This document shows, in pieces, positions 18,970 to 25,184 of a stretch of DNA of 64,000 nucleotides (position 1 is its first letter; each line of letters starts with the position of its first letter). The notes under the pieces are model-generated. The model was not told the DNA's origin. It ran no database searches and was given only the letters and a program-made list of their open reading frames with translations. The position numbers and the translations under genes were made by a program. The DNA is from Anaeromyxobacter dehalogenans 2CP-C (GTDB lineage Bacteria; Myxococcota; Myxococcia; Myxococcales; Anaeromyxobacteraceae). The DNA lies in NCBI RefSeq assembly GCF_000013385.1, contig NC_007760.1, forward strand, positions 2,729,001 to 2,793,000. Reading direction: 5' to 3'.

Positions 18970-19248
18970 GTGGCGCGAATGGTGATGTGCAAGAAGCTCG
19001 GCCGTGAGCTGCCGGGCCTCGCCTACAAGCCCTTCCCGAACGAGCTCGGGCAGCGGATCTACGACTCGATCTCGCAGGACGCCTGGAAGCTCTGGCTCGA
19101 GCACTTCAAGATGATCCTCAACGAGTACCGCCTCTCCCCGGCGGACCCGCGGACCACCGAGATCCTCTTCCAGCAGGCCGAGCAGTTCTTCTTCGGCGAG
19201 AACGCGCAGCTCCCGCCCGACTACCGGCCCCCGCCGTCCAAGGGCTAG
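18970..19248 (+). CDS. yggX: Fe(2+)-trafficking / oxidative damage protection protein YggX
   Basis: A 92-residue YggX-family protein, almost the same length as the E. coli protein (91). Cys7 sits in the N-terminal strand, and the conserved core [20 protein letters not shown] is followed by NEYRL. Family members protect iron-sulfur clusters and assist iron traffic. GTG 18970 follows AAAGGA; an ATG 9 bases later is also possible. It is 25 bases upstream of the radical SAM gene on the same strand, a plausible pairing because that enzyme carries an iron-sulfur cluster. Confidence 0.9.
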
Positions 19249-19273: not shown

Positions 19274-20719
19274 GTGGCGCGGGAGCGCACGGTGCGGCGT
19301 CCGGGCGAGATCCTCCTCCTCTCCACGTACGAGCTCGGCCACCAGCCGCACGGGCTGGCGCTGCCGCTCGCGTTCCTGGAGCGGGCCGGCTTCGCGCCCG
19401 CCTGCCTCGACCTCGCGGTCGAGGCGCTCGACCCGGCCCGCGTCGCCGCCGCGCGCCTCGTCGCGATCTCCGTCCCCATGCACACCGCCCTGCGCCTCGG
19501 GCTCGAGGCGGCGGCGCGCGTGCGGGCGCTGAACCCCTCGGCGGCGATCGCCTTCCACGGCCTGTACGCGCCGCTCCACGCCGGCCTGCTGCTCGAGGCC
19601 GGCGCGAGCGCCGTGCTCGGCGGCGAGTGCGAGGAGCAGCTCGTCGCGCTGGCGGCCGCGCTCGAGCGCGGCGAGGACCTCGCCCGCTTCGTCCAGCGCG
19701 GCGGCGGCGCCGCGCCGACGGCCCGGCTCGACTACCCCATCCCGAACCGTGGCGCGCTGCCGGCGCTGTCGCGCTACGCGCGCCTGGCGGCGGCCGACGG
19801 GACGCTCCGGGTGGCCGGCTACGCCGAGGCGACCCGCGGGTGCAAGCACCTCTGCCGCCACTGCCCCATCCCGCCCGTGTACCGCGGCCGCTTCGTGGCG
19901 GTGCCGGTCGAGACGGTGGTCGAGGACGTGGCGCGACAGGTGGCGCTCGGCGCCGCGCACGTCACCTTCGGCGACCCCGACTTCTTGAACGGCCCCACCC
20001 ACGCGCTCCGCGTCGCGCGCGCGGTGCACGCCCGCTTCCCCGCGCTCACGTTCGACTTCACCGCCAAGGTCTCGCACCTGGTGGCGCACGCGGACGCGGT
20101 CGCCGAGCTGGCGCGGCTCGGCGCGGTGTTCGTCACCTCCGCGGTCGAGTCGCTGTCGGATCGCGTGCTGGCGGCGCTCGACAAGGGCCACGACCGCGCC
20201 GACGCGATCGCCGCGTTCCGCGCCTGCGCCGCGGCCGGCGTGCCGCTCCGCCCGACGCTGATGCCGTTCACGCCCTGGGGGACGCTGGACGACCTGGTGG
20301 ACCTGCTGGACGTGCTCGATGCGGAGGGGATGCTCCCCAACCTCGATCCGGTGCAGCTCTCCATCCGCCTGCTCGTGCCGCCCGGCTCGCTGCTGGAGGG
20401 CGCGCCCGGGATCGCGTTCGAGGGGCTCGACGCGGCCGCGCTCACCTGGCGCTGGCGCCACGCCGATCCGCGGATGGACGCGCTGCAGCCGCGCATCGCC
20501 GGCGAGGTGGAGGCCGGCGCCGCGCGCGAGGCGCCGCCGCTCGAGACCATCGAGCGGGTGCGCGCGCTGGTGCGCGCCGCGGCCGGGTTGCCGCACCGCC
20601 ACGTGCGCGTGCTCGCCCCCGACCAGCGGCGCGTGCCGCGCCTCACCGAGAGCTGGTTCTGTTGAGCAGAGCCAACTGCCCGTCAGGTGGACGGGCTCTC
20701 CGAAGACCCCCGACGCTGA
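19274..20719 (+). CDS. B12-binding-like radical SAM protein, predicted selenoprotein with Cys-Sec-Ala-Glu-Pro tail
   Basis: Residues about 10-115 resemble a cobalamin-binding Rossmann domain (ILLLSTYELGHQPHGLALPL, then GECEEQL). The radical SAM core carries Cys190-x3-Cys194-x2-Cys197 (TRGCKHLCRHCP) for the 4Fe-4S cluster. The frame appears to stop at TGA 20663-20665 after ESWFC. Read as selenocysteine (residue 464) it continues U-A-E-P and 14 further residues to TGA 20717, giving 481 residues. A SECIS-like hairpin follows. I recall a named family with CUAEP or CCAEP tails; this was not checked here. GTG 19274 is used; GTG 19292 has a better ribosome site (GGGAG). Substrate unknown. If Sec is not inserted, the protein ends at 20665. 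Confidence 0.85.
20668..20699 (+). promoter_or_regulatory. Bacterial SECIS-like hairpin downstream of the in-frame TGA
   Basis: A perfect 7-bp stem (20678-20684 with 20690-20696) closes the loop AGGTG (20685-20689), and AGA (20668-20670) can pair with TCT (20697-20699) below an internal loop. The GGU of the loop starts 20 bases after the TGA, within the spacing of known bacterial SECIS elements, which SelB reads through a GGU-containing loop. Confidence 0.8.
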
Positions 20720-21579: not shown

Positions 21580-22854
21580 TCAGGCGACCGGCAGCGGGGC
21601 CCGGATGTCGAAGGAGAGCCGGCCGTGCGCCTCCCGGAGGGTGCGCTCCACCTCCTCCGGCGTCTCCCCCTTCGCGAACAGGAAGCCGAGGTAGCTGTCG
21701 CCCTCGGGGAGCGGCACCACCTCGCGCCCCTCGGGCACGGTGATGACGACGTCCTCGACCCCGGGCACCGCCCGCGCCTGCTCCACGCCGCGGACCCCGT
21801 GGAGGACGCCGCGCCGCGGGATGGGCAGCATCATCACGCCGGAGGCGCGCGCCTCGCGCCGGAGCTGCTCGAGCGGCAGGCCCATGGCGTGCGCGACCAG
21901 CACCTCCTCCAGCGTGAGCCCGGCGCCGAAGCGCAGCGTGCGCGAGCAGAGGCCGCCGATGGAGCGCGCCGCGATCTCCAGCACCACCGGGCCGTCCGGC
22001 GACAGGCGCAGCTCCGCGTGCACCGGCCCCTCGCGCAGGCCGAGCGCCGCCGCGCCGGCCGCGGTGATGCGCTCCACCTCGGCGCGGAGGGCCGCCGGGT
22101 GGCGCGAGGGCGTCACGTAGATCGTCTCCTCGAAGTAGGGGCCGTCGAGCGGGTCGGGCTTGTCGAACAGCGCCAGGACCTCGAGCCGGCCGCCGCGCAG
22201 CAGCCCTTCCAGCGCCACCTCGGCGCCGGGGACGAACGCCTCCACCAGCACGCTGCCGGCCGCCTCGCGCTCGCGGGCGCGCCGCTCGACGCGGGTGTCG
22301 TGCAGGAGCCGCTGGATCCGGCGCCAGGCCGCCACGAAGCCGGCCGGATCGTCGGCGCGGATCACGCCGCGCGACGCCGAGAAGATGAGCGGCTTCAGCA
22401 CGCACGGGTACGGGGCGGCGCGGGCGGCCGCCTCCGGGTCCTCGTCGAGCGCGTGCAGCCGGAACGCGGGCACCGGCACCCCCGCGTCGCGGAGGGTGGC
22501 GCGCATGGCGTGCTTGTCGGCGGCCCGGCGGGCGGCGACGGGCGGGTTGAACGGCAGGCCCAGCTTCTCCGCGGCCAGCGCGGCGATCACCGCGGTCGGA
22601 TCGCTGCCCGGGACGATCCCGGCGATGGGGCGCGTCCGGGCCGCCTCCGCCACCTGCTCCGCCGCGTGCTCCGGCTTGCGGTAGTCGAGGGAGAGGAGAT
22701 CGGCCTCCGGGCCGAAGGTGTCCTCGATCTGGTGGCAGCGGTCGCTCCCCACCAGCAGCGGGACCCCCAGGCGGCGGGCGGCGTCGCGGAAGTCGTCGAG
22801 GCGGTAGCTCGTGGTGGGGACGAGGAGGAGCAGCGAACCGTGCGGCGTGGACAT
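21580..22854 (-). CDS. ATP-grasp domain enzyme
   Basis: A 424-residue ATP-grasp ligase of the type that joins a carboxylate to an amine or thiol through an acyl-phosphate. The pre-ATP-grasp domain (1-100) opens LLLLVPTTSYRLDDF and includes GIVPGSDPTAVIAALAAEKL. The ATP-binding half has PYPCVLKPL and a glycine/serine-rich loop (SASRGVI). The metal-binding acids lie in GPVHAELRLSPDGPVVLEIA, then RSIGG. ATG 22854 has TAAACT 8 bases upstream, so it may be leaderless. It lies between the methyltransferase and E1-alpha genes on the same strand. Substrates unknown. Confidence 0.8.
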   Translation of the reverse strand: MSTPHGSLLLLVPTTSYRLDDFRDAARRLGVPLLVGSDRCHQIEDTFGPEADLLSLDYRKPEHAAEQVAEAARTRPIAGIVPGSDPTAVIAALAAEKLGLPFNPPVAARRAADKHAMRATLRDAGVPVPAFRLHALDEDPEAAARAAPYPCVLKPLIFSASRGVIRADDPAGFVAAWRRIQRLLHDTRVERRAREREAAGSVLVEAFVPGAEVALEGLLRGGRLEVLALFDKPDPLDGPYFEETIYVTPSRHPAALRAEVERITAAGAAALGLREGPVHAELRLSPDGPVVLEIAARSIGGLCSRTLRFGAGLTLEEVLVAHAMGLPLEQLRREARASGVMMLPIPRRGVLHGVRGVEQARAVPGVEDVVITVPEGREVVPLPEGDSYLGFLFAKGETPEEVERTLREAHGRLSFDIRAPLPVA

Positions 22855-24240: not shown

Positions 24241-24281
24241 ACTGCTTGATATGCTGGCGCGCCGCCCCGGAGGACGTCCGC

Positions 24282-25184
24282 ATGGATCTCGCCCAGCTCG
24301 AGCTGCTCGCCGCCGTCGCGGAGGAGCGCAGCTTCACCCGCGCCGCGGAGCGCCTCCGGCGCACGCAACCCGCCGTGAGCCAGGCCCTGCGCCGGCTGGA
24401 GGACGAGGTCGGGGCGACGCTGGTGGACCGCTCCTCGCGCGACGCCAGCCTCACCGCGGAGGGCAAGGTGCTGCACGACTACGCGCAGCGCATGCTGAAG
24501 CTGCGGCGCGACGCGGGCGAGGCGCTGGAGGCGCTCCGCGACCTGCAGCGCGGCACCGTGGCGGTGGCGGCGAACGAGCACACCGCCACGCACCTGCTCC
24601 CCGTCCTCGCCGCGTTCCGGCGCCGCCACCCGCGCCTGCGGGTCGAGGTGCACCGCGGCCTCGCGCGCGAGATCCCCACCGCCGTGCTCGGCCGCGACGT
24701 GGAGCTGGGCGTGCTCACCTACCGCCCCGCGCAGCCCGGGCTGGTCGCGCAGCAGATCGCCACCGACGACCTGGTGCTGCTCGTCCCGCCCGAGCACGCG
24801 CTCGCCGGGCGCGGCACCGTCTCGATCCGGCAGCTCGGCGGCGAGGCCTTCCTGGCGCACCACGTCCGCTCCCCGAACCGCGAGCGGGTGGTGAAGGCGT
24901 TCGCGCGCCACCGGACGCCGCTCGACATCGTGATGGAGCTGCCCACGCTCGACGCGGTGAAGCGGCTGGTGGTGGAGCGGGTCGGCATCGCGCTCATGCC
25001 CGCGCGCGTGGCCGAGCCCGAGCTCGCGCGCGGCGAGCTGGTCGGCCTGACCGTCCGGGAGATGCGCTTCCCGCGCCCCGTGCTGCTCGTGCACCGCCGC
25101 GACGCCCCGCTCTCGCGCGCCGCCGAGGCGCTGCTCGAGTGTGCCCGGGAGGTCGCGCCGCGCGGGGCCGCGCGGACCGGCTGA
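24282..25184 (+). CDS. LysR-family transcriptional regulator
   Basis: A 300-residue LysR regulator. The N-terminal winged helix-turn-helix (1-60) has SFTRAAERLRRTQPAVSQAL and the LEDEVGATLVDRSSR wing. The effector-binding periplasmic-protein-like domain runs from about 90 to 295, starting GTVAVAANEHTATHLLPVLA. Family members activate a divergent target and repress themselves. ATG 24282 follows GGAGGA. The divergent target here is the E1-alpha gene, so the co-inducer could be a 2-oxoacid; this is inference. Confidence 0.92.
   Translation: MDLAQLELLAAVAEERSFTRAAERLRRTQPAVSQALRRLEDEVGATLVDRSSRDASLTAEGKVLHDYAQRMLKLRRDAGEALEALRDLQRGTVAVAANEHTATHLLPVLAAFRRRHPRLRVEVHRGLAREIPTAVLGRDVELGVLTYRPAQPGLVAQQIATDDLVLLVPPEHALAGRGTVSIRQLGGEAFLAHHVRSPNRERVVKAFARHRTPLDIVMELPTLDAVKRLVVERVGIALMPARVAEPELARGELVGLTVREMRFPRPVLLVHRRDAPLSRAAEALLECAREVAPRGAARTG

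Follow-up and report, generated by a model that had tools for sequence, protein, structure and literature searches.

A hairpin downstream of an in-frame UGA in a radical-SAM gene of Anaeromyxobacter dehalogenans 2CP-C is very probably a bacterial SECIS element

The hairpin at 20678–20696 of the window is very probably a functional bacterial SECIS element, as judged from sequence comparison. It follows an in-frame TGA in a radical-SAM gene of Anaeromyxobacter dehalogenans 2CP-C; the window is the whole stretch of DNA analysed, 64,000 nucleotides of contig NC_007760.1 (positions 2,729,001 to 2,793,000). Its conservation through many bacterial phyla as a selenocysteine (Sec) signal appears well supported. 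The SECIS interpretation offered in the initial annotation was upheld: the stem was kept with compensatory changes in homologues carrying TGA and lost in those carrying cysteine (Cys), and the genome has the full Sec machinery. The SECIS reading would confirm a Sec codon that ordinary translation takes for a stop. That the hairpin falls within a family of selenium radical-SAM proteins catalogued before is also well supported, so that it is of a known kind and the strong new support concerns this instance.

Table 1 Features in and around the radical-SAM gene (positions in the window).
Feature	Position	Strand	Basis
YggX-type Fe(2+)-trafficking / oxidative damage protection protein	18979..19248	+	NF003817, 122.8 bits (cut-off 74); upstream neighbour
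Predicted radical-SAM selenoprotein gene, NF040546 (putative start)	19274..20719	+	NCBIfam, 674.7 bits; Pfam Radical_SAM PF04055
Second hairpin, UGA in loop	20655..20673	+	-9.6 kcal/mol, z -4.4; by-product of conserved W-F-C-U-A-E-P codons
Candidate Sec codon UGA	20663..20665	+	C-U-A-E-P motif; of 105 homologue tails, 87 have TGA and 18 a Cys codon at this place
Coding tail after Sec, 17 codons, AEPTARQVDGLSEDPRR	20666..20719	+	Translation; final stop TGA 20717-20719
Lower stem, 3 bp, AGA x UCU	20668-20670 with 20697-20699	+	Complementary bases present; conservation unsupported
Predicted SECIS upper stem, 5' arm GCCCGUC	20678..20684	+	Covarying stem, two-sided changes in 6/7 pairs
Predicted SECIS apical loop AGGUG	20685..20689	+	Conserved G is G20686, next G/U, next U; loop table of 80 Sec sequences; bSECIS G[G|U] (PMC13188914)
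Predicted SECIS upper stem, 3' arm GACGGGC	20690..20696	+	Same as 5' arm
ATP-grasp enzyme with L-amino-acid-ligase C-terminal domain	21580..22854	-	PF13535, PF18603

The read-through protein matched profile positions 1–467 of 468 of NF040546 (CUAEP/CCAEP-tail radical SAM (seleno)protein), whose equivalog cut-off is 500 bits, and its C-terminal motif ESWFCUAEP has the C-[UC]-A-E-P tail by which that family is recognised. The gene is a full member with no difference from the family, the name of which itself covers Sec and Cys forms. The AEPTxxQ motif that follows the UGA was kept among relatives, Cys homologues included. A sub-threshold B12-binding match was found beside the Pfam radical-SAM domain. 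ArsL, the radical SAM enzyme of arsinothricin biosynthesis (NF040542; PMC8552651), showed clear homology over ca. 400 residues (263.6 bits). However, this score is below the NF040542 cut-off of 450, the label of that family is RCCLKC rather than C-U/C-A-E-P, and the ArsL-type C-terminus did not align with the gene. ArsL is a relative, the gene is a non-member of its family, and the function of ArsL cannot be transferred to it. The 2006 selenoproteome census listed 11 selenoproteins of A. dehalogenans, namely three FdhA, SelD, and seven others, and includes no radical-SAM protein (PMC1794560). Our literature search found no published SECIS description for the NF040546 family.

The genome of 5,013,479 bp, in one contig, has tRNA-Sec (anticodon UCA), SelA, SelB, and SelD. 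In-frame TGAs occur in the SelD gene itself and in three FdhA-like genes. In SelD and in the one FdhA-like gene whose TGA region was read (loop GGUCU), a hairpin that can fold and has G in its loop comes after the TGA, which fits recognition of both by one SelB.

Reading the sequence directly, we found the structure that the initial annotation had described: positions 20678–20684 and 20690–20696 pair as a perfect 7-bp stem closing an AGGUG loop, and 20 nt lie between the UGA and the GGU at 20686–20688. The stem-loop lies inside the coding region, which continues for 17 codons past the UGA. The bSECIS model requires an apical loop of 3–9 nt, a stem of 4–16 bp, a distance of 16–37 nt from the UGA, an energy of at most -7.5 kcal/mol, and G[G/U] within the first two loop positions (PMC13188914). 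Checked by hand against Fig. 2A of that paper, the hairpin satisfied all of these constraints and missed none, with a 5-nt loop (AGGUG), a 7-bp stem, a distance of 19 nt from the UGA to the loop, and an energy of -12.7 kcal/mol for the 19-nt hairpin alone; 0 of 200 shuffled sequences were as stable (z -3.6). When 20666–20702 was folded in isolation, another structure was preferred, in which the GGU is paired. When ca. 6–10 nt after the UGA, which the ribosome would cover, were left out, the 7-bp hairpin was the sole stable fold remaining.

The 3-bp lower stem of the initial annotation fared less well. AGA and UCU are indeed present, but what separates them from the upper stem is a one-sided 7-nt bulge (20671–20677) and not an internal loop, and they were not conserved. 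Among 55 relatives, 62% of the cells were paired, the outer pair was unpaired in 31 of the 55, the A-U pair had no two-sided change, and the G-C pair changed on one side only. Since the relatives give it no support, the lower stem was dropped from the element. The second hairpin, whose loop holds the UGA, was likewise rejected as a signal: synonymous shuffles equalled it in both Sec and Cys forms, and it is not Sec-specific. In the Rfam search at gathering thresholds, tRNA was the sole match.

The host DNA is G+C-rich, and a lone hairpin of such quality is not rare near its TGAs. The window contains 820 TGAs when both strands are counted. Under a loose rule (perfect stem of at least 7 bp, G[G/U] loop, 16–37 nt from the TGA), 1.6% of them had a hairpin this good or better, and 5 of 109 TGA stops of long open reading frames were positive. 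With a strict GGU loop and a spacing of 17–21 nt, a 7-bp hairpin occurred at ca. 0.1% of the TGAs, namely at the 20663 site alone. Because similar hairpins follow 1.6% of the window's TGAs, the single hairpin is by itself modest evidence, a good lead rather than proof. The earlier description of it as independent evidence for Sec was too strong on this account, although that description holds for the comparative evidence.

Thirty Myxococcota genomes had a family member over the cut-off. A single TGA lay inside the match in 29 of them; the remaining one (L033) had none, and Cys stands there where the others have TGA. Scanning genome contigs brought in a further 80 loci, which came from Nitrospirota, Rokubacteria, Planctomycetota, Poribacteria, Gemmatimonadota, Chloroflexota, Thermomicrobiota, and other groups. 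Among the 105 tails read at the Sec site (Table 1), the Cys codon was TGC in 11 and TGT in 7, the others having TGA; four further tails read by hand comprised two with TGA and the hairpin sequence and two with Cys and without it. The distance between the hairpin and the UGA was nearly constant among homologues, whereas the position of the final stop was highly variable.

By a fixed rule, a stem capped with a G[G/U]U loop was detected in 77 of 81 Sec rows, but among the 18 Cys rows in 2 (p 6e-13 by Fisher's test, which takes no account of phylogeny). In an alignment of 55 distinct Sec sequences, 93.5% of the cells paired and six of the seven stem pairs changed on both sides, the remaining one being an invariant C-G. 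The covariation score was 0.677 against 0.211 for shuffled alignments (0 of 500 as high), and slid registers gave at most 0.175. In the same columns of 17 Cys genes, 41% of the cells were paired and covariation was absent (0.153 against 0.137). The stem thus changes in a compensatory manner in UGA homologues and is relaxed or absent in Cys homologues; the homologue alignment proposed in the initial annotation, for which lack of conservation of the stem or of the loop in homologues keeping the TGA would have spoken against a SECIS element, gave the opposite result. The 55 sequences were those fitting the loop register of the window, a selection that favours pairing, and therefore the unselected tests, namely the fixed rule and the codon shuffles described below, weigh most.

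The GGU loop that the initial annotation expected to be constant was not so. Homologue loops read A-G-[U/G]-U, mostly with GUU; among 80 Sec sequences, A-G-U-U was found in most, A-G-G-U, the type of the window, in a minority, and AGGCU or CGUCG rarely. What stays constant in the loop is a G, after which G or U usually comes, in agreement with the bSECIS model (PMC13188914).

On the tree, six switches between Sec and Cys (undirected) were required. Four independent pairs on well-supported branches were available; among them the hairpin tracked the codon in ca. 3.6 and opposed it in 0, for which a sign test gives p 0.125 at best.

Could the stem be a by-product of the conserved tail T-x-x-Q-[LVF] and of codon usage, with the UGA read as Sec and the true SECIS located elsewhere? 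The Q codon CAG and the codon after it form the loop in most members, as such an origin would have it, and Q is also retained by Cys forms. However, in shuffles of synonymous codons, which preserve each peptide and its codon usage, the G[G/U]U hairpin was destroyed in Sec forms, with p<=0.05 in 84% of 80 Sec genes (p 0.028 for the window gene itself), against 0% of 18 Cys genes, in which shuffling had no such effect. Additionally, the hairpin was displaced relative to the UGA in three Anaeromyxobacteraceae genes, by -2 nt in L016, +5 nt in L010, and +6 nt in L023. In these genes the local peptide differs and TxxQ[LVF] is altered or gone, yet the stem and an AGUUU or AGUUC loop survive elsewhere in the tail. 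Since the hairpin moved with its loop kept, selection acts on the RNA, and peptide constraint does not explain the displaced hairpins. A by-product of the peptide is consequently a very improbable explanation.

We consider it equally improbable that TGA 20663 is an ordinary stop followed by a chance fold where two genes converge in G+C-rich DNA. The frequency of comparable hairpins at other TGAs of the window is in keeping with such a fold, as is a convergent methyltransferase gene, which ends 16 nt past the second TGA. On the other hand, the protein motif AEPTxxQ, common to the Cys homologues, runs past the TGA, the changes in the stem are compensatory, and the Sec form co-occurs with SelB or tRNA-Sec. 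An intrinsic transcription terminator of the radical-SAM gene is more improbable still. The stem is G+C-rich and close to the end of the reading frame, but a T-run is absent (the stem is followed by TCTCCGAAGACCCCC), the near-constant distance is to the UGA while the final stop varies widely, and the Cys forms have lost the stem.

The co-occurrence was evaluated from the genomes that carry the homologues. Of the 23 Sec-form genomes checked, 22 had SelB or tRNA-Sec. Among 18 Cys-form genomes, 5 were positive and 13 lacked both (Fisher p 6e-6 for the contrast, phylogeny ignored). The sole Sec-form exception was an Acidobacteria MAG (G220, locus L073) in which neither was found, probably due to incompleteness of the MAG. 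The five Cys-form genes whose genomes carry both SelB and tRNA-Sec are L084, L086, L092, L106, and L110; these genes use Cys in spite of the apparent availability of Sec decoding.

With the hairpin as a SECIS element, a ribosome having the UGA in its A site would hold the nearest downstream nucleotides inside and leave the 7-bp stem free at its entrance. SelB, going by what is established for its binding and delivery, would then recognise the G-[G/U]-U apical loop and bring selenocysteyl-tRNA-Sec. The UGA would be decoded as Sec, and translation would continue for 17 codons until it reached TGA 20717. This would yield a radical-SAM selenoprotein whose C-terminus consists of C-U-A-E-P-T-x-x-Q and a short variable end. 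The CUAEP family would thereby gain a clear comparative SECIS case, with covarying Sec stems, loss in Cys genes, and out-of-frame moves in which the loop is kept. Its homologues of both the Sec and the Cys form, some with the hairpin intact and some with it lost, are good material for studying the requirements of SelB.

Neighbouring genes were counted by targeted tblastn, as all-against-all clustering of open reading frames was swamped by spurious frames in the G+C-rich DNA. Among the 80 loci from the contig scan (L039–L118), a YggX-type gene lay within ca. 135 nt upstream of the radical-SAM gene in 17, from Myxococcota, Chloroflexota, and one Latescibacterota genome. An ATP-grasp gene similar to that of the window was close to the radical-SAM gene in 32 of the same 80 loci, in several phyla; it was mostly downstream on the same strand, while in the window it is convergent. 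The ATP-grasp enzyme is a possible pathway partner of the radical-SAM protein. The Cys-Sec pair on a mobile C-terminus could serve as a redox pair or as a soft-metal ligand. Rather speculatively, the CUAEP radical-SAM protein and the ATP-grasp enzyme might form an uncharacterised small-molecule module, in which an ArsL-like enzyme would bind a metal(loid) or soft substrate by its Cys-Sec tail and make an unusual SAM-derived amino acid, to be ligated by the ATP-grasp enzyme.

The Anaeromyxobacteraceae appear to have rebuilt the coding tail after Sec several times, a hairpin with the same type of loop persisting; L010 is near the window gene on the tree, yet its tail has little in common with that of the window. 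Elsewhere in the window, the best NCBIfam match of a LysR regulator gene (24246–25184, + strand) was the selenium-metabolism-associated LysR family, at a sub-threshold 165.8 bits (cut-off 250).
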